Source of the DNA: Actinomycetes bacterium
Lineage (GTDB): Bacteria > Actinomycetota > Acidimicrobiia > Acidimicrobiales > Acidimicrobiaceae
Reading direction: 5' to 3'
Assembly (NCBI GenBank): GCA_021785255.1
Contig: JAJYGA010000111.1
Coordinates: 1-36,395 of the forward strand
DNA: 36,395 nt
How positions within the stretch are numbered: the stretch's first letter is position 1; each line of letters starts with the position of its first letter. Shown here in pieces: positions 14,393 to 35,934 of the stretch. A program made the translations under genes and the position numbers. The notes beneath the pieces were generated by a model that did not search any database, was not told the DNA's origin, and saw only the letters and a program-made list of their open reading frames with translations.

Positions 14393-14440
14393 ATAACACC
14401 AAGACAGGGGACCCATCTGGGTCCCCTGTCTTGGTGTTAT
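14393..14440. terminator. Bidirectional terminator, perfect 22-bp stem
   Basis: Bases 14393-14414 and 14419-14440 are perfectly complementary with a 4-base loop, and contain a G+C-rich core (AGACAGGGGACCC). The hairpin lies exactly between the stop of the small membrane gene (plus) and the stop of the isochorismatase-like gene (minus), so it probably ends both transcripts. T-tracts are poor on both sides. The perfection of the stem is notable. Confidence 0.85.
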
Positions 14441-15116: not shown

Positions 15117-16973
15117 CTAAGCAAACTGTGGTGGTTTGGGAGCTATCATTCCAGTCTCCGTTTCACAGTTTTCGCGTAACTCTTCTAAGGTAGCGCCAAA
15201 GTTGAAGATATTGATGTTACCTCTTGTTGAGCGCATCTTGTCCCGGAGTGCTTCAGTGGCGACTTTGTCGATGTTCAAATCATTCGTAAGCACAACGCCA
15301 TAGTTGCTTTGGGCGCCTTGTTTAGTCACCAATCCTCTTTTTACTTCTAATGCCACGAGCTCCGGATCACGTGCTAGGGGATCACCCCAGCCTCCGCCAC
15401 CCCAGGTTACGTAGTGAAGTATGTCTCCTTTGTTTACGTGTATCTTGTCGCACTTAGATGGTAAAACCTGCTTGGAGCCGTCTGTGCGAATTAAATACTT
15501 GGTGGATCGGCGTCCTGGCAAACCACCATTTACTCCCCAAGGATATGTAAACCATCTGTCGTCGTGGATGGAGATATCACCTGGCTCCAAGAACCGGTAA
15601 GCGATATCGATCCCGTTGCCGCCTCGAAACAATCCTGCGCCACCTGAGTCCGCTACCGTCTCATACCGTTCAATAAGAAGGGGGAAGTAGGCTTCCAAGA
15701 ACTCGTTTGGCACGTTAGTGAAACTGGGCCAAAGCGAATGGCCATCGGGTCCATCTCCAAAAGGTCGACCGGGAATTCCACCGAAGCCGATCTGGTACAG
15801 CTGAAACCATTCACCGTTTTTATCTGTTCCTGAGTACATAAGATGTGGTGAGGAGGAGAACCCAGCTGCATTCAAAAATTCAGGCTGTCTCTGCCCCAAG
15901 AGTCCACCGAGAATGTCAAATATTCGACCAAGAGCATGTGTCCTACACGAAAGTGCAGCGGGATAGATTGGTTTCAGGAGAGAACCCTTAGGGATCCTGA
16001 CCTCTACAAGTGGATAAAATCCATCGTTCCAGAGGATCTGTGGATCAAAAACCATGATCATGTATATGCCAAAAAACATCTTGAGCATGTTCTCGTTGAG
16101 GTAGAAGTTTATAGGTCCTTTGGACTGAGGGTCGGTACCTTCAAAGTCCAATATGACCTTTCCGTTCTCGCGCCACATGGTACAAGATATTTTGTAGGGA
16201 CCAAATCCCATGCCATCGTCGTCGAGATAGTCGACGAAGTTGAGCTTTTCTTCGCTTATAGAGGTAGCTATGAGTTGTGACATGGCTCTGAAGTTGCGAT
16301 CTAATAGAGCATCAAGGACAGAGATGTAAGTCGAGGTTCCAAACCTAGAACAGAGTTCTGTGACTCTTCTACCTGCCGTTCGACATGCGGCAACGATGGC
16401 GTTTAGATCCGATCTGTTCCACTGTTTCATTCTCACCTGATTCAAGATGAGGTTCAGCATTTCTTCGTTGAGTTCACCTTTTTTATACAGCTTTACCGGC
16501 GGTATGACCACGCCTTCTTCGTGTATGGACTCCGCGTCGGTAGGTAGTGATCCAGGAACCTTTCCGCCTACATCCGTCATATGTCCAAACATTGCAGACC
16601 ATCCTACGATGCGGCCTTCGAAGTAAATAGGCATTAGTACCAACCAATCGTTGGCGTGGCTTATGGCTCCGTCGCAGCTGTAAGGATCAGAGGTCAAAAA
16701 GACATCTCCCTCTTCCACTGTACCTTTATAGTTGTCTAAGAAACCCCCAATGAAGGAGCCGAACTGACCAACAACCATTTTCCCGTCAGGATCTGCGATT
16801 AGGGGAAACTCGTCGTGCTGTTCCCTTATCCCAGGTGACATGGCTGTTCGAAAAAGCACTGCGTCCATCTCGTATCGCGCGTTTCTTAGAGCATTCTCAA
16901 CGATGTCGACCGTAATAGTATCGATGTCGGTTCTCTCGATGGGTGCCGTGTTTGTTTGAACTATCTGTGCCAT
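15117..16973 (-). CDS. hyuB: Hydantoinase B/oxoprolinase family subunit
   Basis: This 618-residue protein is the HyuB-type subunit of ATP-dependent N-methylhydantoinase, oxoprolinase and acetone/acetophenone carboxylase-like enzymes. Recognisable features are the N-terminal VEIVENAL-type helix followed by RTAMSPGIREQHDEFPLI, FGHMTDVGGKVPGSLPTDA, the SDPYSCDGAISHANDW segment near residue 95, and the glycine-rich GGAGLFRGGNGIDIAY and GGGGWGDPLARDPE near the C terminus. Its ATG follows the hyuA stop with no gap (TAAATG), implying translational coupling and a 1:1 complex. HyuA supplies ATP use, HyuB the ring-opening or carboxylation half. The exact substrate cannot be read from sequence, but the isochorismatase-like neighbour favours a hydantoin-type ring. 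Confidence 0.93.
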   Translation of the reverse strand: MAQIVQTNTAPIERTDIDTITVDIVENALRNARYEMDAVLFRTAMSPGIREQHDEFPLIADPDGKMVVGQFGSFIGGFLDNYKGTVEEGDVFLTSDPYSCDGAISHANDWLVLMPIYFEGRIVGWSAMFGHMTDVGGKVPGSLPTDAESIHEEGVVIPPVKLYKKGELNEEMLNLILNQVRMKQWNRSDLNAIVAACRTAGRRVTELCSRFGTSTYISVLDALLDRNFRAMSQLIATSISEEKLNFVDYLDDDGMGFGPYKISCTMWRENGKVILDFEGTDPQSKGPINFYLNENMLKMFFGIYMIMVFDPQILWNDGFYPLVEVRIPKGSLLKPIYPAALSCRTHALGRIFDILGGLLGQRQPEFLNAAGFSSSPHLMYSGTDKNGEWFQLYQIGFGGIPGRPFGDGPDGHSLWPSFTNVPNEFLEAYFPLLIERYETVADSGGAGLFRGGNGIDIAYRFLEPGDISIHDDRWFTYPWGVNGGLPGRRSTKYLIRTDGSKQVLPSKCDKIHVNKGDILHYVTWGGGGWGDPLARDPELVALEVKRGLVTKQGAQSNYGVVLTNDLNIDKVATEALRDKMRSTRGNINIFNFGATLEELRENCETETGMIAPKPPQFA

Positions 16974-19037
16974 TTATGCCTCTCTTTGCGTGTTGGGTCG
17001 AATCAATACATTTCCAAAGTTGTCTATCTTGCCGAAGTGCCCAGGAATTATTAAGGTGGTAGAGTCCATTTCCACCAAAATCGCGGGTCCTTCTATCGTG
17101 TCTCCTGACTCCAAGAGCTGCCGGTTGTATATTTTTGCGATATAAATTTCACCGGCGTACCGTATCTCAGATTCACCTGAGATAGCCTGCGATGGATCAC
17201 CATCTCCCTGATTGATCGTGGGTGCGGAGACGATGCTGTCTTTTGCAGTTACGACGGCCCGTAGGTTTACGATCTCATGTTGGGAATCAAGTGCGAAGGT
17301 GAACAGGCGCTCGTGTTCACGATCAAAGCGATCCCCAGCGGCCTTAAGTCCTTCAGTCTTGAGCTCTCCTATGCTCACCTGGGTGGTTACTTCAAAACCT
17401 TGACCATGATACCTAAGGTCGAGCTCGAATCTTTCCTCCATCTCATCTTCTGTTACGCCTTCTTTGGTTAACTCAGTCTTGGCCTCCAAGAGCAAATCTT
17501 GAAGTTGCTTTACAACCTCTTCAGCAGACGTGTCGGAGAACTGGCGAATAAAGGTTCTCGAAGACTCAGCTCTCAGTGTTGTGGTAGCGTCGCCATATGC
17601 GCAGAGGACGCCTGGGGACGGTGGAATAATCACCGGCCATGAACTCATGAGTGATCCTAAAGCGTTGGCGTGGAGAGGACCAGCACCTCCAAATCCAATT
17701 AATGCGTAGTCCCTTGGATCGTAGCCTTGCTGAACGGAAACCAGACGCAAGGCACCGAACATGTTTTCGTTGACGATGTTGACGATTCCGGCGGCGGCAC
17801 TATAGACATCTACACCGAGTGCGTCTGCGACCGTACCTACAGCTTTGAATGCAGCCTCTCTATCTAACTGCATTTCACCACCTAAAAGGGAGGTGGGTAG
17901 GTATCCGAGAACTACATTGGCGTCAGTGACCGTGGGTTGAGTTCCTCCGTGACCGTAAGATGCTGGCCCAGGCACAGCACCTGCGCTCTGGGGGCCCACA
18001 CGCAGAGCCTTTGTGAGTTCGGGCACGTGTGCTATCGAGCCGCCACCTGCGCCCACGGTTCTGACATCGACCGAGGATGATCTAATTGTGAGATCGCCCA
18101 CGGAGGTCTCCCTGCCGATCGAAGCCACGCCATTTTGTACGAGAGCGACATCGGTGGAGGTTCCTCCCATATCCAACGTAAGTAAGTTTTTGTATCCTGC
18201 TTGAGAGGCAATCCAGACTGCGCCAGAGACGCCCCCAGCTGGTCCACTCATGAGCATCGATACTGGAGCTTGAGAGGCAACATCTACGCCCATTAGCCCT
18301 CCATCAGAGCGAAGGATATGGAACAACAACTCTCCAGTTCGAGACTTTAACTCGGAGTCCAAACGATTTAGATACCTTGAAGCAGTAGGACGCACATAGC
18401 TATTGGCTACTGTTGTGAGCGTGCGCTCGTACTCTTTGATCTCGGGAAGAATCTTCGAGGAGAGCGATATGGGGATCTCGGGAAACACCTCACTTACGAT
18501 CTCGGCGATCTTTTGCTCGTGAGTGTCGTTACTGAAGGAGTTGATAAGCGAGATAGTGACCGCTTCAACATTGTTTGCTTTGAGGATCTCCAGATCTTCG
18601 CGCAACTTGACCACGTCTAGCTCCCGTATCACGTTACCTCGAGCATCGATGCGTTCTTTAGCCTCAATTGTATCTTCTAGCTTGGCGAGAGGTTCTGGCT
18701 TTGGCCAGATAATCCAACCTGCCAATCCGCCGGGAACAAAAGAGCGTGCTACTTGAAGAATCTGTTTAAAACCTTCAGTGACGATTAGCCCGACTCGAGC
18801 TCCTTTCCCTTCGAGAATCGCATTTGTAGCTACCGTTGTGCCGTGCATCAAGTGTGCAATCTCAGTAGCAGAGATGTTTGCTTTTGAACATATTCGCTCA
18901 AGTCCGTTGACTACAGCTATAGAGGGATCAGCGGGCGTGCTAGGTACCTTGTCCCGAACGGTTGTTCCTGTACTCTGATCTATTAGCAGGAGATCAGTAA
19001 AGGTTCCTCCCACGTCTACGCCTAGTCGATACTGCAC
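16974..19037 (-). CDS. hyuA: Hydantoinase/oxoprolinase A-type ATPase subunit
   Basis: A 687-residue HyuA-type subunit with an actin-like ATPase fold. The phosphate-binding motif LGVDVGGTFTDLLLID starts at residue 4 and the second one, LLTLDMGGTSTDVALV, lies near residue 284. Other matches are LMHGTTVATNAILEGKGA (about 62-79), GPAGGVSGA (about 266) and GFGGAGPLHA (about 448). The enzyme class uses ATP to open hydantoins or 5-oxoproline, or to carboxylate ketones. The GTG start at 19037 is supported by AAGGAAGGGA upstream. It is followed without gap by hyuB and preceded by the CoA-transferase gene, 54 bases away. It is complete and of normal length. Confidence 0.94.
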   Translation of the reverse strand: MQYRLGVDVGGTFTDLLLIDQSTGTTVRDKVPSTPADPSIAVVNGLERICSKANISATEIAHLMHGTTVATNAILEGKGARVGLIVTEGFKQILQVARSFVPGGLAGWIIWPKPEPLAKLEDTIEAKERIDARGNVIRELDVVKLREDLEILKANNVEAVTISLINSFSNDTHEQKIAEIVSEVFPEIPISLSSKILPEIKEYERTLTTVANSYVRPTASRYLNRLDSELKSRTGELLFHILRSDGGLMGVDVASQAPVSMLMSGPAGGVSGAVWIASQAGYKNLLTLDMGGTSTDVALVQNGVASIGRETSVGDLTIRSSSVDVRTVGAGGGSIAHVPELTKALRVGPQSAGAVPGPASYGHGGTQPTVTDANVVLGYLPTSLLGGEMQLDREAAFKAVGTVADALGVDVYSAAAGIVNIVNENMFGALRLVSVQQGYDPRDYALIGFGGAGPLHANALGSLMSSWPVIIPPSPGVLCAYGDATTTLRAESSRTFIRQFSDTSAEEVVKQLQDLLLEAKTELTKEGVTEDEMEERFELDLRYHGQGFEVTTQVSIGELKTEGLKAAGDRFDREHERLFTFALDSQHEIVNLRAVVTAKDSIVSAPTINQGDGDPSQAISGESEIRYAGEIYIAKIYNRQLLESGDTIEGPAILVEMDSTTLIIPGHFGKIDNFGNVLIRPNTQREA

Positions 19038-19091
19038 TTGGTCATTCCCTTCCTTTCTGTTTAGTAGATGTTTTACTTTTTTGCTTTTGAG

Positions 19092-20330
19092 TTAGATGAC
19101 ACCTTTGGCTATGAGTTCCTCCGTCTCAGGCTTTGAGATCCCCAGTAAATCGTGGTAGATCTCCTCGTTGTGCTCGCCGAGATGTGGACCAACCCACCTA
19201 AGCACTCCCGGAGTCTTCGAAAGTCGCGGTGCTACATTGTGCATTGGAAACTGTCCGAGTTCTGGATGCTCCAAGGTTATTATGTCGTTTCGAGCTTTGA
19301 AGTGCGGGTCTTCGAACATTTCTTTGGCTGTGTAGATGCGACCCTGCGGTACACCGTTTTCATCGAGAAGCTGAGATAACTTGGCACCCTCGTAGGTGGC
19401 TGTCCACGCCGATATTAAGGTATCGAGTTCCTCCTGATTCTCACCACGAGCCGCATGGGTGGAGTATTTAGGGTCTTGAGCCAGTTCTGGATGATTCATT
19501 GCTACTGCGAGACGTCCGAAGACTGAGTCTTGATTGGCTGCAATAACGATCATCTGACCGTCTGCGGTCGGATAGACGTTTGAAGGAGCCACATTTGGAA
19601 GAATTGAGCCTGTTCGTTCACGGACATATCCAGCGAGAGCGTACTCTGGAAGTAGCGATTCCATCATCGCGAGTACTGCCTCGTATATGGCGGAGTCAAC
19701 TACTTGGCCAACTCCAGTTTTCTCCGCTAGATGAAAAGCGGATAGTGCTCCTATGGCAGCAAACAGAGCCGCCAAAGAGTCTCCGATCGAGATTCCAGAA
19801 CGTGAAGGTGCTGTTGAAGGATCACCCGTTACGTAACGTAACCCTCCTATTGCTTCTCCTATTGAACCATATCCTGCCCGTGAAGCGTAAGGACCATCTT
19901 GCCCGTATCCAGTCACTCTCACCATGACTAACCTGGGATTTATCTTGATGAGTTCTTCAAATGACAACCCCCATCTCTCCATGGTTCCTGGTCGAAAGTT
20001 TTCAATCACGATGTCGCTCTTTTTTACAAGTTCACGAAAAAGTTCTTGGCCCTTTTCAGACCTTAGATTGAGAGTCACTGACTTCTTATTGCGAGCAACA
20101 ACAGGCCACCAAAGCGACAGACCGTGAGGCTTTTCTCTGCCCCACTCTCTCATGGGATCGCCTTTTTTTGGGTCCTCGACTTTGATGACTTCGGCACCAA
20201 AATCTCCAAGTAGTTGTCCACAAAACGGTCCTGCAAGAAGTTGACCTGCTTCTATGACCCTAACATCGCTGAGAGGACCGTGGCTAAATCGTTCTATGAT
20301 TTCCTGGTAATCTGGACTGTTCATCGCCAT
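19092..20330 (-). CDS. Family III CoA-transferase (CaiB/BaiF)
   Basis: A 412-residue CoA-transferase of the CaiB/BaiF family, which moves CoA between acyl-CoA and a carboxylic acid. The N-terminal VIEAGQLLAGPFCGQLLGDFGAEVIKVE (about residues 25-52), the KSVTLNLRSEKG block, NFRPGTMERWGL and the catalytic aspartate in GQVVDSAIYEA (about residue 218) match well. Together with hyuAB and the isochorismatase-like gene it suggests that the ring-opened product ends as an acid needing CoA activation; the substrate is unknown. A GGAGG five bases before the first ATG fixes the start. It is the first structural gene after gntR, 63 bases apart on the same strand. Confidence 0.93.
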   Translation of the reverse strand: MAMNSPDYQEIIERFSHGPLSDVRVIEAGQLLAGPFCGQLLGDFGAEVIKVEDPKKGDPMREWGREKPHGLSLWWPVVARNKKSVTLNLRSEKGQELFRELVKKSDIVIENFRPGTMERWGLSFEELIKINPRLVMVRVTGYGQDGPYASRAGYGSIGEAIGGLRYVTGDPSTAPSRSGISIGDSLAALFAAIGALSAFHLAEKTGVGQVVDSAIYEAVLAMMESLLPEYALAGYVRERTGSILPNVAPSNVYPTADGQMIVIAANQDSVFGRLAVAMNHPELAQDPKYSTHAARGENQEELDTLISAWTATYEGAKLSQLLDENGVPQGRIYTAKEMFEDPHFKARNDIITLEHPELGQFPMHNVAPRLSKTPGVLRWVGPHLGEHNEEIYHDLLGISKPETEELIAKGVI

Positions 20331-20393: not shown

Positions 20394-21035
20394 TTAACTG
20401 CGAGGTTTCGTTACCCACCTTGCAGAACGGATGTGACAATGCATTACTGCCTCTGCCCACTCTGGGTCTTGATGGCTTAAAGCAGTAATGAGCTCCCGAT
20501 GATGATTCATGGATCTACTAAGCTGTTCTTTGGAGTACAAGCTGAAGGTGTTGCGTACCATGGATACCTGAATGATTCCCTTGAGAGTAGAGATCAACAT
20601 CGTCTCTCCTGAAGCTTCATGTACGATTCCGTGGAAGGCGTTGTTTAAGTCCGTAATGAGACTGAAACGATCCGGTCGGGTGCCTTTACTAGCTCGCTCC
20701 ATCTCTTCAGCTAGAACGCAAAGTTTTTCTAAATGAAACTCTTTTATCTTTGAAGCTGCCAACTTGGAGGCCCTCCCTTCGAGAAGGAGTCTCATTTGAT
20801 ATATTTGGGCTATGTCTTCGTCGGTCCATGAGGTTACGTACGCCCCTTTGTGAGGTGATAGTTCTAGTAGTCCTTCCGCCTCCAATTGTCTTATAGCTTC
20901 GCGAACAGGTGTTCTAGAACAACCTAAATCGGTAGCAAGCTCCTCCTCCCGTATGTGATCACCGGCTGCAAGGGTCCCCGAGAGGATGCGGTCTTTGAGC
21001 GTTTTGTATACGATTGAGGCTGATGTTCGAGGCAT
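20394..21035 (-). CDS. GntR-family transcriptional regulator with FCD domain
   Basis: A 213-residue FadR-subfamily regulator. An N-terminal winged helix (about residues 6-68, with DRILSGTLAAGDHIREEELATDLGCSRTPVREAI in family order) precedes an all-helical FCD ligand domain (about 78-205) carrying the metal-binding-type His residues in NAFHGIVHEASG and MHCHIRSARW. Such proteins usually repress the adjacent catabolic operon and release DNA on binding a pathway acid. It is the first gene of the minus-strand operon. A 14-bp palindrome lies across its promoter 25 bases upstream of the ATG, so it likely controls itself and, if cotranscribed, the hydantoinase genes. Confidence 0.94.
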   Translation of the reverse strand: MPRTSASIVYKTLKDRILSGTLAAGDHIREEELATDLGCSRTPVREAIRQLEAEGLLELSPHKGAYVTSWTDEDIAQIYQMRLLLEGRASKLAASKIKEFHLEKLCVLAEEMERASKGTRPDRFSLITDLNNAFHGIVHEASGETMLISTLKGIIQVSMVRNTFSLYSKEQLSRSMNHHRELITALSHQDPEWAEAVMHCHIRSARWVTKPRS

Positions 21036-21047
21036 TGACCTAGTTTT

Positions 21048-21075
21048 ATCATAATTTCGGCATACATGTATGCAA
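21048..21075 (-). promoter_or_regulatory. gntR promoter with palindromic operator
   Basis: On the minus strand TTGCAT (21070-21075) and TATGAT (21048-21053) form a good promoter with a 16-base spacer. The perfect 14-bp palindrome GCATACATGTATGC (21060-21073) overlaps the -35 box and spacer, as expected for a repressor site. FCD-type GntR proteins commonly bind short palindromes of this kind, so autoregulation is the simplest reading. Transcription would start only a few bases before the ATG. Confidence 0.65.
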
Positions 21076-21215
21076 TTGGAGGAGTTTTTATTTAGCCAAT
21101 ATTTGGCGACTAAAGATTAGATCTTAAATTTGGGAGCAGTTTTGTTCATAGCCAGTCTTTGTAACAGCAAAAAATTAAAGTCAGAATGTTATCAATGAGG
21201 ACGAATGGTTTGTGA

Positions 21216-22355
21216 ATGTGCACTTACGAATTATCAGATAAAAATACGATTTTTCCCGAGAGAATCCTTGTCGTGAGTTGTGGGCTCAATCCCCAAGTGG
21301 TTACTGAATCCATTTACGCGCTGGCGTTAACTTCGGATGCCCCCTTTCATCCCACTTCGGTTAAGGTAATAACAACTTCCAAGGGTAAGGACAAGGTATT
21401 AACGAAACTCTCAAGTTTGGGTGAAGGATGGCTGCCGAGACTGTGTGAAGAGTATCAACTATCCCATCTAGACGTATTGGAAGAAGACGTTGTTGTACCT
21501 CAAAGTGTAGAAAATGTCGGCGATGTGCTCGACGACATTCGCAGTAGTGAAGATAATATTGTGATGGCTGACGCTATATCTTCTTTCCTTCGAGAGCTCA
21601 CAAGACGTGAGGACGTTGCTCTACATGTCTCGATAGCTGGCGGTAGAAAGACTATGGGATACTTGCTTGGCTACTCACTTTCCCTTTTTGGGAGGGTCCA
21701 AGACAGCCTCTCACACGTATTGGTCTCGCCGGAGTACGAGTCTTTGGAGGAGTTTTACTATCCAACGAAGCGACCTTTGTTGCTGAAGGCTAAAGACGGT
21801 CAAATGATGGATGCATCAAGAGCTAAAGTTGATCTAGCCATACTTCCTTTTGTGCGCCTTAGATCAGCAATTCCAAAGCAGCTTCTTGATGACAGTGTTA
21901 GTTTCTCCGAAACAGTAAGTTCGATACTTATTGATTTACGCCATTCGAGTGTGCAGATTGACACTAAAAATGCAAACCTTTACCTCAACGGCAGGCAAAT
22001 CTCCCTTACTTCTACTCAGGTCTTGCTCTTTAGCTATTTGGCGAAAAAGGCAATGACGGGAGATCAGTTAAAGTTTCCAGCAAAGAACCGCTACGACGTT
22101 GAACTCGGTCAAGAACTATTGTACGAAGCGGAGAAGATAGGAGTTACCTTTGCCCTTCGAACGGAGACACTGAAGCGACTTTCAGAAGGAGTTGACAGCT
22201 CATATCTACATATCGTGCTTTCTCGTTTGAGGAAGAGCTTGATAGAGGCAGTTGGAGAGGACGTTACCCAAAGGCTGATTCGAGAAAGCAAGTCGGGGGT
22301 GGGCATGAAGTGCGTTGAGTATGGTGCCGACCCGGATCGTGTTGTGTATCTCTAG
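21216..22355 (+). CDS. CRISPR-associated NE0113-family CARF protein with putative winged-helix tail
   Basis: A 379-residue protein whose first 190 residues match the Cas NE0113 family (annotated as CRISPR-associated ring nuclease, Csm6/Csx-type). It has ILVVSCGLNPQVVTESIYALA near residue 17, VITTSKGKDKV at 51, and the hallmark HVSIAGGRKTMGYLLGYSLSLFGR (about 137-160), then LSHVLVSPEYE. This CARF domain binds cyclic oligoadenylates made by type III CRISPR complexes. From about residue 248 the sequence (LYLNGRQISLTSTQVLLFSYLAKKA, later HIVLSRLRKSLIEAVG) resembles a winged-helix DNA-binding domain. No cas gene or CRISPR array is in the window. The ATG lacks a strong ribosome binding site. It is divergent from gntR. 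It could be a ring nuclease, a cOA-responsive regulator, or both. Confidence 0.88.
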   Translation: MCTYELSDKNTIFPERILVVSCGLNPQVVTESIYALALTSDAPFHPTSVKVITTSKGKDKVLTKLSSLGEGWLPRLCEEYQLSHLDVLEEDVVVPQSVENVGDVLDDIRSSEDNIVMADAISSFLRELTRREDVALHVSIAGGRKTMGYLLGYSLSLFGRVQDSLSHVLVSPEYESLEEFYYPTKRPLLLKAKDGQMMDASRAKVDLAILPFVRLRSAIPKQLLDDSVSFSETVSSILIDLRHSSVQIDTKNANLYLNGRQISLTSTQVLLFSYLAKKAMTGDQLKFPAKNRYDVELGQELLYEAEKIGVTFALRTETLKRLSEGVDSSYLHIVLSRLRKSLIEAVGEDVTQRLIRESKSGVGMKCVEYGADPDRVVYL

Positions 22356-22856
22356 GGCGCTGGAAGTATTCGTATTGGAGTAGCGATAGTTGTTAGTCAC
22401 CCACTTATAGAACTAGTTTCCGATGACTGAGGGGATTTGGAGATTGGTGTTGTTTCCTATTGTCGTCGAATAAGAATGTAGATGTTGCTGTAGAGGTGAG
22501 GTCAAGCAGCCTCATTGGTTATTTGAGTGGTAAAGCCTTTTGGTGAACCTATATCGCATGTTCTCCAATCAGCGGAGGGTGTCAAGGATACTTTCAAATA
22601 GGTGATCTGAAAGTGATGAAATCAAGAAACGTTTCATATCCAAGGGCTGCTTCTAGAGAGATGGAATCGTAGCCAAAGAGCTTCTTCGTTCCCAAACCCG
22701 GACGGGTCAGGATCTATCACCCGTGAGTTCCACAAATGAAAAGAACCTTGTCCGTGCAAGTTGCTTTAGGACGTAATTGTAGATAAAAGATGAATCCAGT
22801 ATCCCTTGTGGATGACAAGTTGTATTATGCTTGTATTATAAAAGGGGGATACTTAG
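22356..22856. promoter_or_regulatory. Intergenic stretch; promoter region of the methyltransferase fusion at its end
   Basis: No gene is seen in about 500 bases after the CARF gene and no CRISPR-like repeat occurs. At the right end a tandem TTGTATTAT (22820-22828 and 22831-22839, spaced 11 bases) offers two -10-like TATTAT boxes, the second just upstream of AAGGGGG (about 22842) and the ATG at 22857. The downstream copy is the likelier -10 box. Confidence 0.4.
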
Positions 22857-23996
22857 ATGTGGAATCCTGAGCAGTATTTAAAGTTCCAAGAAGAAAGGTC
22901 TCAACCTTTCTTTGATTTGACCGCGCGAGTTAGGTGTAGTCCTCGGTCAATCGTCGATCTGGGATGCGGTACAGGGGCTTTGACCGCCACTCTTCTTAGT
23001 AGATGGCCAGCAGCTAAGGTTCTCGGTATTGACAGCTCTTTTGAGATGATCGAAAGAGCAAAGACTCTGGAGGTTCCTGGACGTCTCACATTTGAACTTG
23101 TGGATATGACCTCATGGGAACCAAGAGACCCTATTGACTTAATTTTATCTAATGCTGCTTTACAATGGATTCCTGATCAAGAGTCTTTATTGGAAAAAAT
23201 GGCGAGTTGGTTAAGTCCAAGTGGCAATATGGCTTTTCAGGTCCCCGCGAACTTCGATGAACCTTCCCATATGCTCATTGACTCCGTTGTGCAGAGTCCC
23301 AAATGGCTTTCTGTTCTTGGAAGAGATTTGCCGAAACCGAAGATTTTGGGATCAGCCAAAGAGTATTTAGCTTTGCTTGCGGAGCTCGGACTTTTGACCG
23401 CAGCTTGGGAGACCACCTACCTACATGTGCTTCATGGCGGAGATGCGGTGCTTGAGTGGACAAAGGGTACAACCCTGCGTCCCGTCTTAGAGGCTTTGTC
23501 GCCTGGTCTTCAATCTGAGTTCTTGGATGAGTATGCAAAACTTCTGAGTGACGCCTATCCACCTTCCTCCATTGGCACGGTGTTTCCGTTCCGAAGAATT
23601 TTCGTTGTTGGTTCTAACGTGGATGAAAACCCCTTGGCTCCAGTAGCAGCTTTGGATCACGTCCAAGTTGCCATGCCAAAAGGTGGAGAAAGTGAAGCTC
23701 GGTATTTTTTTACGGGGATTCTTGGTCTTCGTGAGATTGAAAAACCGGATGATCTGAAGAGCCGAGGTGGCTGCTGGTTTGGAGGGGATGGGTTTCAAGT
23801 TCACCTTGGTGTCGAGGAGAACTTTACTCCCGCTAAAACGTCCCATATCGCTCTGCGTGTTACAGATCTTGAAAATATAGTTGCTTTGTTGAGAGACAAG
23901 GGGCATCATGTCCAAGATCTTCAAAGTAGAGGCTTGGAACGTTTTTGTTGCACCACTGACTCATTCGGGAATCGAATTGAACTAATCCAGACCTAG
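22857..23996 (+). CDS. Trans-aconitate methyltransferase-like / VOC (glyoxalase) fusion
   Basis: A 379-residue two-domain protein. Residues 1-255 are a class I SAM-dependent methyltransferase resembling trans-aconitate 2-methyltransferase (Tam): WNPEQYLKF at the N terminus, SAM motif I IVDLGCGTGALTATLL (about residues 33-48), then VLGIDSSFEMI, LILSNAALQWIPD and a C-terminal VFPFRRIFVVG. Residues about 264-379 form a complete VOC domain (LDHVQVAMPKGGESEARYFFTGILGL, HIALRV, FGNRIELIQ) with plausible metal-ligand His and Glu positions. AAGGGGG eight bases upstream supports the ATG. Tam proteins normally end after the first part, so the glyoxalase-like half is an added module. Substrate and whether the domains act in sequence are unknown. 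I see no frameshift at the joint. Confidence 0.9.
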   Translation: MWNPEQYLKFQEERSQPFFDLTARVRCSPRSIVDLGCGTGALTATLLSRWPAAKVLGIDSSFEMIERAKTLEVPGRLTFELVDMTSWEPRDPIDLILSNAALQWIPDQESLLEKMASWLSPSGNMAFQVPANFDEPSHMLIDSVVQSPKWLSVLGRDLPKPKILGSAKEYLALLAELGLLTAAWETTYLHVLHGGDAVLEWTKGTTLRPVLEALSPGLQSEFLDEYAKLLSDAYPPSSIGTVFPFRRIFVVGSNVDENPLAPVAALDHVQVAMPKGGESEARYFFTGILGLREIEKPDDLKSRGGCWFGGDGFQVHLGVEENFTPAKTSHIALRVTDLENIVALLRDKGHHVQDLQSRGLERFCCTTDSFGNRIELIQT

Positions 23997-24146: not shown

Positions 24147-25076
24147 CTAGACAACGTTTTGATCTTTCCACTTCCTAATGCGTTCCTCGGCAATCGCAAT
24201 ATAGCGCGGTTCAGAGTCGACGCATATATAACGCCGCTCGGTCTGAAGACAGGCTATCGCTGTTTGCGCAACACCTCCGAATGGGTCGAGTACGACATCG
24301 TCTTTGTACGTGTAGAGCTGAATTAGTCTTGCAGGTAACTCAGCAGGGAAAGGAGCTGGATGCTGTAGCCTTTTTGCCGATGCAGGTGGTATATACCAAG
24401 TATCTAAAGTCCAAGCTCGAAAGTCTTCTGCAGCGATGGTATCTTGATGCGGCAAGCTAAGTTCGCGTCTCTTTTTTTTGTCAATAACCCTGGAAAAGCG
24501 TCCCTTTGATGCGACGATAATTCTTTCGCTCACATCTCGAAGTACGGGGTTTGAAGCGGAGGAGTAGCTACCCCAAGCGCAAGATCCATTTGCCCCTTTC
24601 CCCTTGATCCAAAGTATCTCGCCTCTTAACAAAAATCCCAACGAATCCTGAAGGATCGAAGCGACATCGGAAGATAAAGAACGATAGGGCTTTCGCCCAA
24701 GGTTTGCAACGTTGATCGCGATTCGTCCACCAGGCTCCAACACCCGATAACACTCCGCAAAGACGTCACCTAACAACTCTAGATACTCTATATATGAGGA
24801 GGGATAGCCGTTTGCCACTTCGAGTTCGTACTCTTTGCCCACAAAATAGGGAGGTGAGGTTACGACAAGAGCTACGCTATTGTCCTCTATGAAAGACAGA
24901 TCTCTACTGTCGGCACTCCAGAGCGTGTTTGGTACGGAGCATCTTGCGATATCTTCGTCGGCAGATAACTTTGGAGGTGCAAACCTGCTGTAAAAAGACG
25001 AAGCGTCGTGTCCTTCTCGTTTGCCGCTCCCATAGGATCTTGTGGATGTGCGTTGATTTTTTGTAGATTCAGACAT
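24147..25076 (-). CDS. Orphan site-specific DNA methyltransferase (beta-type, N4-C or N6-A)
   Basis: A 309-residue DNA methyltransferase of the DpnA/beta class. The catalytic motif IV TSPPY lies at residues 73-77 and precedes the SAM motif, here VVLDPFGGVAQTAIA (about 262-276), an unusual form of the common DPFxGSGT. The order IV before I defines the beta class. TSPPY occurs in N4-cytosine and some N6-adenine enzymes, so the modified base is undecided. A central GSCAWGSYSSASNPVLRD block is typical of this group. No adjacent restriction enzyme is seen, but a nuclease-like unknown lies 2 kb upstream on the same strand. It converges with the methyltransferase-VOC fusion gene. Confidence 0.92.
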   Translation of the reverse strand: MSESTKNQRTSTRSYGSGKREGHDASSFYSRFAPPKLSADEDIARCSVPNTLWSADSRDLSFIEDNSVALVVTSPPYFVGKEYELEVANGYPSSYIEYLELLGDVFAECYRVLEPGGRIAINVANLGRKPYRSLSSDVASILQDSLGFLLRGEILWIKGKGANGSCAWGSYSSASNPVLRDVSERIIVASKGRFSRVIDKKKRRELSLPHQDTIAAEDFRAWTLDTWYIPPASAKRLQHPAPFPAELPARLIQLYTYKDDVVLDPFGGVAQTAIACLQTERRYICVDSEPRYIAIAEERIRKWKDQNVV

Positions 25077-25252
25077 CTATAGACACCCTGGGCTTTGGTG
25101 TAAAGCATACGTCAAATCTCACCGAACCATACCTTCTTAGAGCAATACTTGTGGTAATGCTAGGCGGTTTCTGTTACAAATCGTTTTGAATCCTTGGATA
25201 CTTTAGGCTAGCTCATCGAAGTCATCGTGCTGAGCTGAATTACCTGATCGGC

Positions 25253-26725
25253 TTAGTATTCTATCTCTGGAAGGCGGGCGGAGTATATTGAGTAACCGTC
25301 GATGGTTTTTGCTACCAGGGTTGCCAGAACGGTGGCAATCATGAGCGGGACGATAATGCCGAAACCGGTGTGAGTCAACTCAAGTACCAGAACGACAGCA
25401 GCAAATGGAGCCTGCATGCCCGATCCCATGATCGCTGCTGCTCCAATGAGTGCGTAGCTACCCGTTGAAGCCCCTGGCCATAACATGGACCACATAATCC
25501 CCATTGCTCCACCCAAGACGGCCCCGGTGCTTAGGGTTGGAGTAAAGAGGCCACCCGAAGCGCCACTTCCAATACATAATGCAGTTACAAATGGTTTCAG
25601 GGCAAAAAGTGCAAGAAGAAGAGTAAGTGTTCCACCTCCAACGAATACCTGGTGAGCCATGTCCTTACCGTTTCCAAAGAGCTCAGGATAGCGGATTCCG
25701 ATTACTCCCAAGATGGTGAATGCCACAAAAGGCGCGGCGATAATCTTTTTTCCACCCATGCGATAGTGACTTACCCATGCCATCATACGAACATACCCGA
25801 CGGAAATAACACCGAAGATCGGACCAGCTACTACTGCCCATATCAACTGAGATGTCGAGAAGTGAAAGTTACCCAAGTCCAAGTAAGTGGCCCGATTCGG
25901 TAGATAGATCCAAGCAGTAACAGAGGCGATGACGGACGTAGCTAAAGCTGGAAGAACAACAGAGATTGAAAGGCTTCCATAAAGTAGCTCTGCGGCAAAG
26001 AGTGCGCCACCCAAGGGAACGTTGTACACGGCTGCCAGGCCTGCTCCAGCACCACAGGCAATTAATAGTCGTCGCTGATGAGGGCTCATCTTCGTCCATC
26101 GGGCTAAGTAATCTCCAGAGACGGCTCCCATCAACTTAGGAGCCGCTTCTCGTCCAATCGATGCGCCCATTCCTATGACGATCTCAGAGATTATAGAGGT
26201 GAGAAAGCTTCGCCTGAACGATAGCTGTCCTTTGCCGAGCCACAAGATGTTGTCGGCTTCGGTGCTTTCGCCTTTGGTATACTTTCGAAGCAAGTACCAC
26301 GCAATCCCTCCGAACACCCCTGCGATCATGAGTGAAAGCACTCGATGTAATCCCGATACGTGTTCTACGGCGGTTTGGTAGGATCCGCTGTGGTAGTTGT
26401 AGGCAATGTGTTGCACTCCAAATAGCACTACCATCATCAAGTCTCCAAAAAGACCGGTTGCTATGCCTACCACAATTAATGCAAGCCAAAACTTAAGGTT
26501 GGGTTCTGCGGCATCCGGACGAGTGTTGGGTTGTTCTAAGGCACTTCTTTTTGAAGGAATAGGAGTCGAGATAAAAGGACCGGGTCGTTTTTTCCGATTT
26601 TGGCCAGCGGGGTTCTGGATTGATTGAGCCCCTAAGTCCTGATGTGAGTCGGAGTCTTGTTCGGAAGAGTCATCGTTAGAACTACTGTGTAGATTTTCAC
26701 TAGCAGTCACTTGATAGGCCCCCAA
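25253..26725 (-). CDS. ClC-family chloride channel/transporter
   Basis: A 490-residue ClC-type membrane protein that would move chloride, possibly in exchange for protons. About 75 hydrophilic, Ser/Gln-rich residues precede the membrane core, longer than in the E. coli protein. The gating-glutamate motif appears as GMGASIGREAAPKLMG (GxxxGxExP-like, about residue 180) and the GxFxP anion-site motif as GASGGLFTPTLSTGAVLGG near residue 388. I do not see the canonical N-terminal GSGIP selectivity motif, which some prokaryotic subfamilies lack. The C terminus ends right after the last helix, without CBS domains. The gene stands alone. Acid resistance is one known role of bacterial ClC antiporters and would fit an acidophile, but that is inference. 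Confidence 0.93.
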   Translation of the reverse strand: MGAYQVTASENLHSSSNDDSSEQDSDSHQDLGAQSIQNPAGQNRKKRPGPFISTPIPSKRSALEQPNTRPDAAEPNLKFWLALIVVGIATGLFGDLMMVVLFGVQHIAYNYHSGSYQTAVEHVSGLHRVLSLMIAGVFGGIAWYLLRKYTKGESTEADNILWLGKGQLSFRRSFLTSIISEIVIGMGASIGREAAPKLMGAVSGDYLARWTKMSPHQRRLLIACGAGAGLAAVYNVPLGGALFAAELLYGSLSISVVLPALATSVIASVTAWIYLPNRATYLDLGNFHFSTSQLIWAVVAGPIFGVISVGYVRMMAWVSHYRMGGKKIIAAPFVAFTILGVIGIRYPELFGNGKDMAHQVFVGGGTLTLLLALFALKPFVTALCIGSGASGGLFTPTLSTGAVLGGAMGIMWSMLWPGASTGSYALIGAAAIMGSGMQAPFAAVVLVLELTHTGFGIIVPLMIATVLATLVAKTIDGYSIYSARLPEIEY

Positions 26726-27082
26726 GACCGTTTGAATTACTGACTCGATTAAGTATCGTACCTAAACTCATTAACTTTATTACCCTTGTACTGTCTCGCA
26801 ACTTACAACCAAAATGGTCAAGTTTTCTGCCTGAACAAGCTGCCGATATAAGGCAAACTATTTCATTTGTGTCTTTATTAGGTTACCTTAAGTTTAAGCT
26901 AGTTTCCAAATGCGTATACCGATATCCGTTATTAGCATTGTTATTTAACAGAGTCGGATAGATTGTGAAAACATGATGTGTGCATAGTGGAATAAATTGG
27001 ATTGACTATTTAATTCTCATGTGTCATGACTTGTGAAGCATGTTCGTTCTTGCAAATGTGCGCTGTTGAACCGAGTTGTTCT
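26726..27082. other. A+T-rich intergenic stretch
   Basis: About 360 bases with no open frame worth noting. It follows the end of the nuclease-like gene and precedes the ClC gene on the minus strand, so it should contain the ClC promoter; A+T-rich hexamers are too many to choose one. Confidence 0.4.
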
Positions 27083-28159
27083 TCAATCAAAGAGAGAGTT
27101 TTGATGATCGGCAATGCCGATCTCTGATTCCTCTTTTTCAATATCGAAATAGACTGGTAACTCTTTATGTGGCGTATCTAAGTAAACCTTGGCTTCAGGG
27201 TTTTGATTAAAGCGTCCGTGACTCCATCTGACCTCTACGTGACCTTGGACATAAAGCTCTTTTTGGGTAACCTTGTTTATGACGATCGCCCTCCACGACA
27301 CCGTCGGTTGTCCAGCACTTTTAGGAGTTATCTCAAGTCCTTTAAGTTTGAAGAGGGAGTTCCAATCCCAAGGAGTGCCTATGCGGAGACGCAAAGTTTC
27401 TTTGGCATCTTTTGAGACTCCGAGCATGTAATAAGGAGCTTCGGAGATTCGTAGCATCCTCCAAAGTAGTAGTTCTTGGAGTTTTATATCCTTGAGGTTC
27501 TTTTTCCAACGGTTTGCAGTGTTGGAAGCTACGACATCACATAGCGCTTGATAGTAGGGGAAGAGTTCGCTTGGCCATCTGTTCTCCGAGAGCACTTCTT
27601 TAATGAAGGCTTTGTCTTGAGAGGTGAGTGACAAATACGAATCGGGCATTCTTGAATAAGGATGAAGATGTTCAATGTAGGATTTGGTCTTTTGGAAAAG
27701 GGTATTGAACTCGTCTTTGGCAACTTCAAGATACCAGTTTTTTGAAGGATTTGTGGGTCTGCTTTGCAAGAGGTTGTCAAAGAGGTGGGTGGGTGAAGGA
27801 TTTATAAGAACGTTTGAGGCATATTTGCAGGACACAAGATATACGTGATCAATTCGGAGATCTGCGGGAACCATCTCAAACCCCGTGGTTCTTGTGGGCC
27901 CCCTCCACTCGACCTTCGCTGGCAGACGCCCCCTGAGAGCTGAGTGGGCATGCAAGAAGGCGTTCCCATTGATAAGAGCACAAGAGAGCGTTTTGCTGTG
28001 AGTGGAATGTTTCAACGTGTTGAGCAGACTCTGCCAATCAGATGGTCCGACGCGCTCAAGTTCTTTCGGTGGAGAAGAGGGCATGTCAAGGATTGACTCG
28101 TATCCTAAGGTGCCTAAAGCAGTACAGAGTTCTGTGGCAATAGTGAGTTCTGCTGGCAA
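27083..28159 (-). CDS. Unknown protein with PD-(D/E)XK nuclease-like motif
   Basis: A 358-residue soluble protein that I do not assign to a named family. The N-terminal third ends in ADLRIDHVYLVSCKY (about residues 99-113), a strand-turn-strand with acidic residues (Asp100/Asp104) before S-x-K, resembling the core D-x(n)-[ES]-x-K of PD-(D/E)XK nucleases; Glu84 or Glu95 could supply a third acidic residue. This is suggestive only. The rest is mixed helix with several Trp and Pro residues and an acidic C-terminal tail. The TTG at 28159 is a weak start (AGGAAG is 13 bases away) and the true start may be a later ATG near 28086. Its neighbours, a DNA methyltransferase and a CARF protein, make a genome-defence role possible. 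Confidence 0.7.
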   Translation of the reverse strand: MPAELTIATELCTALGTLGYESILDMPSSPPKELERVGPSDWQSLLNTLKHSTHSKTLSCALINGNAFLHAHSALRGRLPAKVEWRGPTRTTGFEMVPADLRIDHVYLVSCKYASNVLINPSPTHLFDNLLQSRPTNPSKNWYLEVAKDEFNTLFQKTKSYIEHLHPYSRMPDSYLSLTSQDKAFIKEVLSENRWPSELFPYYQALCDVVASNTANRWKKNLKDIKLQELLLWRMLRISEAPYYMLGVSKDAKETLRLRIGTPWDWNSLFKLKGLEITPKSAGQPTVSWRAIVINKVTQKELYVQGHVEVRWSHGRFNQNPEAKVYLDTPHKELPVYFDIEKEESEIGIADHQNSLFD

Positions 28160-28321
28160 CTATCTGCAGTTCTTCCTAAGTTTAATCTCCACAGTCAAGA
28201 GACTAATGCTGAAACATCAACTGAAGCGCTTGTCAATCGGGTGAGCGAGATCTGGTAGAAACAGAACACTTGGGCAAAGTAAGATGATAGGCGTGCACAA
28301 AGAGTTGGGAGGTTAACTGCC

Positions 28322-29323
28322 TTGAGTGTGGATAACGTGGTTCGTCTTGGCCGTAGTGGGTTGAAGGTATCAAGATTGTGCCTGGGAACGATGACCTTTG
28401 GAACCCAAGCCGATGAAGACATGTCTTTTGCCATCATGGACAAAGCCTTGGGCGCTGGTGTCAACTTCTTTGATACTGCAGATGTGTATCCTCTAGGTGG
28501 GGGACACGAACTGGCGGGCACCACGGAGACGATAATCGGTCGATGGCTACCAAGACATAGACATGAGATAATATTGGCAACCAAGTGCGTTGGTGAGATG
28601 GGCCCATTTCCACATCAAAAAGGTGCTTCTCGCAAGCATATTCTGGATGCGGTTGATGCATCTTTGCGTCGTTTAAACACGGACTACATTGATCTTTATC
28701 AGCTTCATAGTTATGACACTGAGACCCCCATAGAGGAGTCTCTTGCCGCTCTTGACTATTTGGTGCACGTGGGAAAGGTCCGGTATGTAGGTTGTTCAAA
28801 CTTTAAGGCTTGGCAGCTGGCGCGAGCACTTGGAAAATCGGAAGCCCGAGGATATGTACGTTTTGACTCAGTTCAACCTCGCTACAATCTTTTGTTTAGA
28901 GAGATTGAACGTGAACTTCTTCCACTTAGCCAGGAGGAAGAGGTAGGGGTGATACCTTACAACCCAATTGCTGGTGGGCTGCTGTCGGCAAAGCACAATC
29001 CGAAGTCTGAGCCTCAGGTCGGAACAAGATTCAACTCCTCCCGTGCATCGCAGCTTTATAGGGAACGTTACTGGCATGAAGATAAATTTGAAATGGTCAA
29101 GGAATTAAAAGAACTTGCTCATGAGGCGGGTATTCCCATAGTCACCATGGCCGTTGCATGGGTAGCGGCTAATCCCGTCGTAACTGCTCCGATTATCGGT
29201 GCCTCTAAGGCTGAACAATTAAACGACTCCCTGAAGGCTCTGGAGTATGAGATCGATCATGATCTAAAAGCACGCCTTGACGAGATGACACAACAGTATC
29301 GTCGTGGTGACGCAGAACGTTAG
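28322..29323 (+). CDS. Aldo/keto reductase
   Basis: A 333-residue NADP-dependent aldo/keto reductase with all four catalytic residues: Asp and Tyr in FFDTADVYP (about residues 51-56), Lys in ILATKCVGEMG (about 85) and His in YQLHSYD (about 125). The long LGGGHELAGTTETIIGRWL segment and VRYVGCSNFKAWQLA fit the YajO/Tas-like actinobacterial group that reduces small aldehydes. The start is TTG with GGGAGG about ten bases upstream; a GTG six bases later is possible. It is divergent from the nuclease-like gene and converges with a tetR gene. It differs clearly from the reductase at 5492-6472 and is not a recent duplicate. Confidence 0.93.
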   Translation: MSVDNVVRLGRSGLKVSRLCLGTMTFGTQADEDMSFAIMDKALGAGVNFFDTADVYPLGGGHELAGTTETIIGRWLPRHRHEIILATKCVGEMGPFPHQKGASRKHILDAVDASLRRLNTDYIDLYQLHSYDTETPIEESLAALDYLVHVGKVRYVGCSNFKAWQLARALGKSEARGYVRFDSVQPRYNLLFREIERELLPLSQEEEVGVIPYNPIAGGLLSAKHNPKSEPQVGTRFNSSRASQLYRERYWHEDKFEMVKELKELAHEAGIPIVTMAVAWVAANPVVTAPIIGASKAEQLNDSLKALEYEIDHDLKARLDEMTQQYRRGDAER

Positions 29324-29439
29324 TGACTCCGCGAATAAGAACTTAAAGCTCTTCAGGCGGGCAAGAATGCTTGCACGTCTGGCACATCTACTTTGTTTGT
29401 GACTATTTTAAAGTTGAGTCAGGGACGTAGAATCATAAA

Positions 29440-30123
29440 TCACCCAACATTAGTTGCAGAGGCATGAATATCTATAAGACAAGGTCTAATTCGACATGAT
29501 CGTTCATATACTCCGATATAACGTCGGTAACTCTGCATGAATAGAGGGCTTTTTGTGGCTTCTTCAACTCCAGATTGAGCACACTCGAGCAGAGCAAAGC
29601 GAATGCCCCCAATTACAGCTCTAGCAATTGCTATGGAGCTAACTCTGGCTTCTTCAGGGTCGACAAAAGGAAAACTTTTGATAATGCGTTTTTGCAGTTC
29701 CGCTTGGAGTTGTTCTTCATACAACCAAGAGATTCGAGCCAAGTCCTTAGCGAGCTGATCGTCAAAGCTTCCTCGTGAAACAACCAACATAGTACTGGCA
29801 GCCATGCCATATCTGGGATTCATTTCGGAAAGAACTCTATCCACTGCATCGAGAATCTCTATTGACTCTGGCTGTTCGTTGAGGAGAGAGAGAAACAGAT
29901 CGTTTAATCTCGTTATCTCCTCAAGTATGGTGGCTTCTTTGCTAGCGAAGTATCGATAGAAGGTTCTCTCGGTTACGCCAGCAAGCTCTGCTATCTGTGC
30001 AATCGTTGTACTGTGATAGCCATAAAGCGAAAACGCTTTTGCAGCAGCGCTAATCAACGAACTCTTTGTTAGCTCGCGCTTTCGAGGTTTTTTATTCTGT
30101 TGTATGGAGTTAATCTGACTCAT
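29440..30123 (-). CDS. TetR-family transcriptional regulator
   Basis: A regulator of 227 residues from the ATG at 30123. The N-terminal TetR helix-turn-helix is clear: AFSLYGYHSTTIAQIAELAGVTERTFYRYFASKEAT (about residues 32-67), with the usual TFYRYFxSKE recognition end. The C-terminal ligand-binding domain is all-helical and not assignable. An in-frame TTG two codons earlier is an alternative start. A basic linker, KKPRKRELTK, precedes the helix-turn-helix. It is convergent with the aldo/keto reductase gene and divergent from the sortase gene, so its targets may be either neighbour; no operator palindrome could be picked with confidence. Confidence 0.92.
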   Translation of the reverse strand: MSQINSIQQNKKPRKRELTKSSLISAAAKAFSLYGYHSTTIAQIAELAGVTERTFYRYFASKEATILEEITRLNDLFLSLLNEQPESIEILDAVDRVLSEMNPRYGMAASTMLVVSRGSFDDQLAKDLARISWLYEEQLQAELQKRIIKSFPFVDPEEARVSSIAIARAVIGGIRFALLECAQSGVEEATKSPLFMQSYRRYIGVYERSCRIRPCLIDIHASATNVG

Positions 30124-30445
30124 CCCCAAGCACTATAATCATGAAACTTATCTCACTTAGAAAAATAATTTGCTTTACATCTAAAAACTAATTTAGCTCT
30201 AAACACCTTGGCTATGCATTTCGGATCCCACAATAATGGGAAACCACTGCCATCAGTTATCGCCGCGAGCTAGACAACTGTTACACTATGTCCTCCAGAT
30301 TCAAAATTTTCTTACGCACTGCCCCGTTCCTGTCGCCTAAGCCATAAAGGCAGAAGGTTCGTGGTAAAATAAGTAGAATGTAGTGCAATAATTACTACTC
30401 TTAGTAATATTATAATGTAATTTTCACTGAGGGTGCATTTGGCCG
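30124..30445. other. Divergent regulatory gap between tetR and sortase genes
   Basis: No gene is visible in 322 bases. The part near the sortase start is very A+T-rich (TAATATTATAATG around 30405-30417) and likely contains its promoter. I found no convincing palindrome for the TetR protein. Confidence 0.4.
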
Positions 30446-32884: not shown

Positions 32885-32957
32885 GCGCTCGTAGCTCAAC
32901 GGATAGAGCATCTGACTACGGATCAGAAGGTTGGGAGTTCGAGTCTCTCCGAGCGCG
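32885..32957 (+). tRNA. tRNA-Arg (anticodon ACG)
   Basis: A complete cloverleaf folds in 73 bases without encoded CCA. The 7-bp acceptor stem is GCGCTCG with CGAGCGC, the D stem GCTC/GAGC, the anticodon stem TCTGA/TCAGA with loop CTACGGA (anticodon ACG), and the T arm GGGAG-TTCGAGT-CTCTC with one G-U pair. It is the only intact tRNA gene in the window and lies immediately upstream of an integrase relic, the usual position of a chromosomal attachment site. Confidence 0.96.
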
Positions 32958-33127
32958 CTCATTATCCCAGTTCGGAAGCCTAATCTCAATATCATCTCTG
33001 CTACGATCCCCTTTAACCCAACAGAACACCCAATATTTGTCACAAGGGATGGTTGTGGTAGGAACGATTCGTCTCAGAGGACAGTCCAACGTCTGAGAAC
33101 TGCGAGTCTTCTTTGGGAGAGACGCTA

Positions 33128-34907: not shown

Positions 34908-34964
34908 TTCGGATCAGAGGGTTGAGGGTTCGAGTTCCTCCGAGTGCGCTTTATAAGTACAGGT
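34908..34964 (+). repeat. 57-bp direct repeat copy 1: tRNA-Arg 3' half, attachment-site-like
   Basis: This copy is identical over 57 bases to 35878-35934. It begins in what would be the anticodon loop (TTCGGA), and continues through the 3' anticodon stem (TCAGA), variable loop, complete T arm (GAGGG-TTCGAGT-TCCTC) and acceptor 3' strand (CGAGTGC), then 14 further bases. The 5' half of the tRNA is absent. It differs from the intact tRNA-Arg(ACG) at about six of 41 aligned positions, so it comes from another tRNA-Arg gene. This is the usual content of att sites of tyrosine integrases. Confidence 0.9.
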
Positions 34965-35212: not shown

Positions 35213-35446
35213 ATGAGCAAACAAATAGCGGTTCGTCTGCCTGAAGATCTTGTAAAATTTGTCGACGCTCTTGTTGCCAAGGGCGAGGTCCCCAGTAGGG
35301 CAGCGGCGGTAGTGCGGGCACTTACCCACGAGCAAAGGCGGATGAGAATTGCTGAAGATGTCGCGATACTGAGTAGATCACGAGTTACCGACGACCTCGA
35401 TGAGCTGGCTGAATATGGTGTCCACCAGCCGATTGAACTAGATTAG
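35213..35446 (+). CDS. Ribbon-helix-helix antitoxin (MazE-like)
   Basis: A 77-residue antitoxin. The N-terminal KQIAVRLPEDLVKFVDALVAKGEVPSRAAAVVRAL is a ribbon-helix-helix DNA-binding domain (first beta-strand IAVRL, then two helices). The acidic C-terminal half, with TDDLDELAEYGV, would wrap and block the MazF toxin. The stop codon shares one base with the toxin start (TAGTG), so the two are translationally coupled. It has no Shine-Dalgarno; operator palindromes and a -10-like box lie immediately upstream. The gene lies inside a 913-bp interval bounded by 57-bp tRNA-derived repeats. Confidence 0.9.
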   Translation: MSKQIAVRLPEDLVKFVDALVAKGEVPSRAAAVVRALTHEQRRMRIAEDVAILSRSRVTDDLDELAEYGVHQPIELD

Positions 35447-35877: not shown

Positions 35878-35934
35878 TTCGGATCAGAGGGTTGAGGGTT
35901 CGAGTTCCTCCGAGTGCGCTTTATAAGTACAGGT
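35878..35934 (+). repeat. 57-bp direct repeat copy 2: tRNA-Arg 3' half, attachment-site-like
   Basis: This copy is identical to 34908-34964 and in the same orientation, 970 bases downstream. The identity stops abruptly on both sides, as at the junctions of an integrated or duplicated segment. Together with copy 1 it brackets the toxin-antitoxin operon, and recombination between the two would excise a 970-bp circle carrying it and leave one copy behind. Confidence 0.9.

Follow-up and report, generated by a model that had tools for sequence, protein, structure and literature searches.

The window analysed here, a stretch of 36,395 nucleotides that makes up the whole of contig C48 of genome G000 (a 2.57 Mb draft in 173 contigs, 96.3% complete), contains a gene for a CARF protein that has no cas gene beside it, and the question is how such a gene came to stand alone and what its product might do. 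The original prediction, made from the sequence alone, proposed a protein that senses and degrades cyclic oligoadenylate while binding DNA, and named structure prediction of its C-terminal part and a genome-wide search for type III genes as checks. The gene (21216..22355, + strand) starts with ATG and encodes 379 amino acids. Its product matches TIGR02584 (cas_NE0113; E 5.6e-58, 196.4 bits against an NCBI curated cut-off of 80.65), PF09623 (E 6e-38) and, over residues 15-358, the PADLOC profile CARF5--CARF (E 1.3e-96). The NE0113 family (TIGR02584, PF09623; CARF5 clade) was predicted in 2014 to consist of direct transcription regulators (PMC4012209), and the window protein is a member of this known family of predicted transcription regulators, which it resembles in its whole sequence and domain layout. 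It retains the family motifs G-L-(S/T)-P-Q-V-x-T-E and A-G-G-R-K-T-M, but differs from the family in having Asn for the Ser/Thr of motif I, at residue 25, and in being encoded by a genome without cas genes.

The absence of cas genes and repeats from the neighbourhood, as originally claimed, holds for the window, in which neither the tblastn search nor the array search gave anything convincing. With 20 sister cas proteins as tblastn queries only chance-like matches were obtained, and the window yielded no CRISPR-like array. The best of the matches (E 0.003), a chance-like one of 102 amino acids inside the aldo-keto reductase gene, was rejected. The genome-wide search gave the same picture: Cas1 is absent from the whole of G000, the Cas10 of the sister species found no match there and the sister CRISPR repeat had 0 matches. 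A single Cas10-palm match in G000, on contig C131, belongs to a GGDEF diguanylate cyclase and was rejected. The HEPN Csx1 domain (PF09455) was found neither in G000 nor in five relatives. Presence of cas10 in the encoding genome, taken as the mark of a type III ancillary gene, was found in the congeners G134 and G314 and not in G000. Contig C131 also carries, at 2385-3863 on the - strand (L014), an ORF of 492 amino acids with an HNH motif and an RRXRR-like start that appears IscB-like by eye.

A plain cause for this Cas-less state is given by G134, in which a complete III-B locus lies between the same flanks. On the left, the window and G134 share HyuB, HyuA and a CoA-transferase (15117..20330, - strand; 85, 80 and 79% identity, order kept), followed by the divergent GntR/FCD regulator that the original prediction had rightly noted (20394..21035, - strand; 75% identity), which stands beside the CARF gene in G134 as well. 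Contig C92 of G134 carries these four genes, then the CARF gene in divergent orientation, cmr1, cas10, cmr3, cmr4, cmr5, cmr6 and csx16, and thereafter a gene for a CARF-PDDEXK protein, cas6, a Cas4-Cas1 fusion, cas2 and a terminal CRISPR repeat. The repeat of C92 recurs, with 1 mismatch, at the end of G134 contig C74, and beyond it, with the DNA methylase directly after the CRISPR array, come the DNA methylase, ClC, restriction-like ORF, aldo-keto reductase and TetR genes in the order of window positions 24147-30129. From the common repeat and the window's own order, rather than from a spanning contig, we infer that C92 and C74 are neighbours in G134.

Between these flanks the window has only the CARF gene, about 0.5 kb of non-coding DNA and a methyltransferase gene. 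The non-coding interval (22356..22856) lies where cmr1 begins in the sisters, marks the left end of the inferred loss and contains no convincing match to any sister cas protein. The trans-aconitate methyltransferase-like gene with a glyoxalase domain (22857..23996, + strand) lies between the CARF gene and the right flank, and it adjoins the DNA methylase in G314 too. The right flank opens with the N6/N4 DNA methylase (24147..25076, - strand), shared with both G134 and G314, and continues with ClC, the restriction-like ORF, the aldo-keto reductase and TetR (25253..30129), ordered as on C74 of G134. The genes of defence type announced downstream are this methylase and an ORF at 27083-28159 that is weakly restriction-enzyme-like (PADLOC, E 1.7e-5), with the ClC channel gene between them. 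By synteny on both sides a type III-B locus was lost here. Most probably the window gene once headed that locus and was then orphaned, and the simplest reading is that everything after it was lost in place. The second congener, G314, has a CARF-cmr1-cas10 operon, and its contig C147 holds 23 repeats and C24 a single one, but its locus (C24, C147; L023, L024, L131) sits between hisG and pheST, unlike that of G134. The ancestral position therefore rests on G134 and G000, and the CARF-III-B locus of G314 was either relocated as a whole or acquired separately. The window in this way shows what a type III locus looks like once it has been lost, its two flanks and a single gene remaining, and offers a testable reason for the occurrence of lone CARF genes.

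A profile search of genome contigs, started from the alignment, gave 80 loci of NE0113 CARF relatives, and in at least 67 of them type III genes lie nearby, usually with the CARF gene directly before cmr1/cas10 on the same strand. The remaining 13 loci are mostly cut off. Cas10-palm matches above the cut-off were found in 10 of 13 genomes (the 12 without a type III match at the locus, plus that of L095), some of these matches being short and GGDEF-like. With type III genes beside the gene in two congeners and in this large share of relatives, the CRISPR-independent design that had been supposed for the protein finds no support.

The predicted structure of the protein comprises two domains. An AlphaFold2 model built with 67 homologues reached a mean pLDDT of 91.4 and a pTM of 0.83 and confidently predicts a CARF domain (residues 15-215; 21258..21860, + strand) joined to a C-terminal winged helix (residues 242-379; 21939..22352, + strand), the former supported by VIA-align comparison with solved CARF structures and the latter, in which residues 242-377 match OmpR/PhoB-type DNA-binding domains, by VIA-align Z scores and the family profile. 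A model of the C-terminal domain alone, made without an alignment, had a pLDDT of 40 and was discarded. Among solved structures the CARF domain is closest to that of Cad1 (8z3k; Z 15.0), followed by the ring nucleases Sis0455 and Sso2081 (Z 13.0 and 12.6). The N-terminal CARF signature in the original prediction is borne out, and the domain is of ring-nuclease type (Z 13 to Crn1). The guess of a C-terminal winged helix also proved right in the predicted model, in which this domain is not part of the ring-nuclease core and has an OmpR/PhoB-type fold. VIA-align matched it to the DNA-binding domain of CadC (Z 9.3 over 98 residues, 2.5 A), to CovR (Z 9.2), to CosR bound to DNA (Z 9.1) and to RitR, the OmpR/PhoB comparisons together spanning Z 9.1-9.3, 92-98 residues and 2.5-2.9 A. 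All 17 solved chains matched by the family profile at E up to 1 are OmpR/PhoB-type regulators (best E 0.09), and it is the C-terminal portion of the profile that aligns with them. The Trans_reg_C profile itself matched weakly, in 1 of 68 family members (E 0.19). The fold matches and the exclusively OmpR/PhoB-type profile matches argue for the winged-helix reading, and the protein presumably binds DNA.

This architecture can be set beside several known proteins. Csa3, the archaeal cA4-binding CARF-wHTH transcription factor, shares the combination of CARF and winged helix and the proposed control of transcription by cyclic oligoadenylate, but the winged helix of the window protein is OmpR/PhoB-like, and Csa3 aligns well over the CARF part only (Z 9.4, 134 residues; whole-chain rmsd 9.5 A). 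Cad1, a CARF-adenosine deaminase of the CARF5 clade, provides the nearest solved CARF domain (Z 15), but bears a deaminase effector where the window protein has its winged helix. MM_0565 of Methanosarcina mazei is likewise a CARF-wHTH protein and binds CRISPR leader DNA (PMC7465815), but it is archaeal and linked to type I-B, and is not known to be related to NE0113.

Whether the protein might also cleave its ligand was judged against the ring nuclease Crn1 (Sso2081), in which motif I is Gly9-Thr10-Ser11 and motif II Gly104-Arg105-Lys106, with Arg105 and Lys106 as the ligand-binding residues of motif II; Glu17 and Asp75 contact the adenines and the S11A substitution impairs cleavage (PMC10018336). 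Motif II of the window protein, G143-R144-K145 (21642..21650, + strand), is intact in its ligand-binding RK and invariant in all relatives. Motif I reads G23-L24-N25 (21282..21290, + strand), with Asn where Crn1 has the catalytic Ser11. The pairing of Ser11 with residue 25 and of Glu17 with residue 31 assumes a gap-free first strand and loop (residue 15 against residue 1 in the structural alignment), and that of Asp75 with D107 follows conservation and not a residue-level structural alignment. The presumed ligand-binding residues E31, D107, R144 and K145 are thus all intact. Across 67 relatives column 25 is occupied by Ser (46), Thr (19) or Ala (2). The CRISPR-bearing congeners G134 and G314, like G287, have Ser there, and the other orphan, G014, has Ala. 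With the binding residues kept and the catalytic position altered, cleavage of cyclic oligoadenylate by the window protein appears doubtful from its sequence, and the claim that it degrades this ligand finds no support, the motif-I Ser/Thr being Asn here. The position of Thr10 is moreover Leu or Met across the whole NE0113 family, so that for the family at large, too, a ring-nuclease activity is no more than putative. The likeness to Crn1 (Sso2081, Sis0455) accordingly comprises the CARF fold (Z 13), the G-R-K of motif II and the equivalents of Glu17 and, by conservation, Asp75; the differences are G-L-N instead of G-T-S in motif I and the additional DNA-binding domain.

A candidate DNA target emerged from the relatives. 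The sequence CAAGCTTG occurs upstream of the CARF gene in 43 of the 66 relatives with usable upstream DNA, and 34 of these 43 have GCAAGCTTGC, where about 2 would be expected. The aligned sites form a 14-bp palindrome, YSGCAAGCTTGCSR, of which CAAGCTTG is the core, with information at background on both sides. In 20 of the 43 loci the distance from the start of the core to a downstream in-frame ATG is 48-51 nt (exactly 50 in 14), a spacing that holds although the N-termini of the CARF proteins vary in length. All loci together hold 104 sites, whereas Markov-3 simulations gave 3-7; the exact palindrome has 77 copies, against 4 for the next palindrome of equal composition. Most of the remaining sites precede cmr1 (often by 62-66 nt) or cas10, or fall within the end of cmr3 ahead of cmr4, as would be expected if a single regulator acted at several promoters inside the type III operon. 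The loci that carry YSGCAAGCTTGCSR (L026-L104) belong to the family of the window protein and lie outside the window. In the 13 relatives without any site the recognition helix is often different, a link confounded by phylogeny because these relatives are also separate lineages. Direct repeats upstream of the relatives showed no convincingly prominent spacing.

The obvious candidate for the binder of the palindrome is the CARF-wHTH protein encoded by the first gene, and the sites suggest that the NE0113 family autoregulates type III operons through it. The role in transcription itself had already been predicted (PMC4012209); what is new is the family-wide palindromic operator, a computational result from the relatives, and a limited literature search found no paper naming the palindrome together with CARF. 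Through this operator in 43 of 66 relatives the prediction of 2014 becomes directly testable, and it suggests that transcriptional wiring to the operon's own second messenger may be common among bacterial type III operons.

The palindrome is missing from the genus of the window, where the best matrix scores are about -11 in G000, -12 in G134 and -7 in G314, and the recognition helix there differs from that of the palindrome-bearing relatives; the operator argument therefore applies to the window protein only by way of its family. Upstream of the window gene a different element, TTTGTAAC (21158..21165, + strand), lies 101-104 nt before the codon of the first CARF strand in G000, G134 and G314 alike; shuffled sequences share any 8-mer with P 0.0045. 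A direct repeat GTAAC-N9-GTAAC is present in G134 and G314, its second half being lost in the window. TTTGTAAC also precedes the DNA methylase gene, both in the window (25173-25180) and in G314 (L130, near 2060), with a TAGC/TAAC half-site 14 bp on. Its role as a CARF-specific operator is therefore doubtful and it may be a promoter element; judged from sequence, it could be either a promoter box or an operator half-site. Promoter and terminator scans around the window gene gave no more than chance. Near the start of the GntR gene a perfect palindrome, GCATACATGTATGC, at 21060-21073 is likely a GntR/FCD operator (putative).

The orphan CARF gene shows no sign of decay. As synonymous sites were saturated, dN/dS was set aside and dN branches were compared: the CARF branch lengths are about 0.18 for G000 and 0.17 for G314, a ratio no worse than for neighbouring genes. 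Of the 75 CARF positions that 90% of relatives conserve, 11 are changed in the orphan, 14 in G134 and 13 in G314. Accordingly, either the loss happened recently or the gene continues to be of use. A second orphan NE0113 CARF-wHTH gene is present in G014 (L015:18002-19258, - strand), a single-contig genome of 2,158,157 bases from the same family as that of the window, in which no Cas10 was found. A Cas1 match in G014 lies 1.1 Mb from the CARF gene, so that this orphan stands beside some other CRISPR remnant or type. It has Ala in motif I, keeps the palindrome as GCAANNTTGC at the expected place and has TTGCAACATTGCAA upstream.

We consider it highly probable that the window gene encodes a two-domain CARF regulator left from a lost III-B locus, that its counterparts in relatives bind their own operon under the control of cyclic oligoadenylate, and that the orphan itself is a leftover. 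In the protein a CARF domain whose ligand-binding residues are intact would be joined to a winged helix of OmpR/PhoB type. Its counterparts in relatives that carry CRISPR systems would most likely bind their own operon, via YSGCAAGCTTGCSR in the main lineage, and be switched by the cyclic oligoadenylate made by Cas10. Because no Cas10 was found in G000, the orphan is probably a leftover that would still fold and may still bind its old promoter, with no home-made signal; both this present state and the ligand control are what we infer. That the species does have a type III locus which the draft merely skips is hardly credible. The assembly is in 173 contigs and the sister contigs do break in the CRISPR array, but the window runs unbroken from the CARF gene into the same right flank, and none of the other contigs of this 96% complete genome contains Cas1, Cas10 or the repeat.

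Retention of the protein after the cas loss as a Cas10-independent regulator, with cleavage lost and binding kept, is a tentative alternative that we hold to be unlikely rather than far-fetched. The ORF is intact with no excess of substitutions over the CRISPR-linked sisters, E31, D107, R144 and K145 persist while the catalytic Ser has become Asn, and the second orphan, G014, without a detected Cas10, combines Ala at that position with GCAANNTTGC at its expected place. However, these are two orphans only, Ala at position 25 also occurs in two CRISPR-linked relatives, a recent loss would look alike and no target gene is known. A wider form of this reading, in which NE0113 CARF-wHTH proteins are cyclic-oligoadenylate-gated autoregulators acting at several internal promoters via one palindrome and the Ser-less orphans are Cas10-independent regulators, is somewhat more doubtful still. 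The self-resetting transcription switch of the original prediction, by which the window protein would sense and cleave cyclic oligoadenylate and control genes near 21216, survives in part: a switch is plausible, and favoured for the family by the operator in relatives, but self-resetting is unlikely for the window copy. As a whole we judge it very improbable, since the closeness to Crn1, the intact motif II and the winged helix are set against G-L-N in place of G-T-S, given the effect of S11A in Crn1 (PMC10018336), and against a genome with no Cas10 to make the ligand. The conserved ligand-binding residues would also suit a response to a nucleotide supplied from outside, for instance by a plasmid- or phage-borne type III system, or made by a different cyclase, but no such source was seen in a cyclase search covering Cas10 and no relatives of the window protein were found in viral contigs, which leaves this proposal, if anything, a shade less probable than the self-resetting switch. 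The leftover of a lost III-B locus accordingly remains our preferred reading.

Elsewhere in the window, a perfect 23-bp inverted repeat with a 2-nt loop lies at 14393-14440 between convergent ORF ends. A tRNA-Arg(acg) is encoded at 32885-32958, and its 3' end is resembled by identical 57-bp copies at 34908-34964 and 35878-35934; these copies, 970 bp apart, flank a MazF-like ORF (35446-35754) and look like the attachment sites of a small element.
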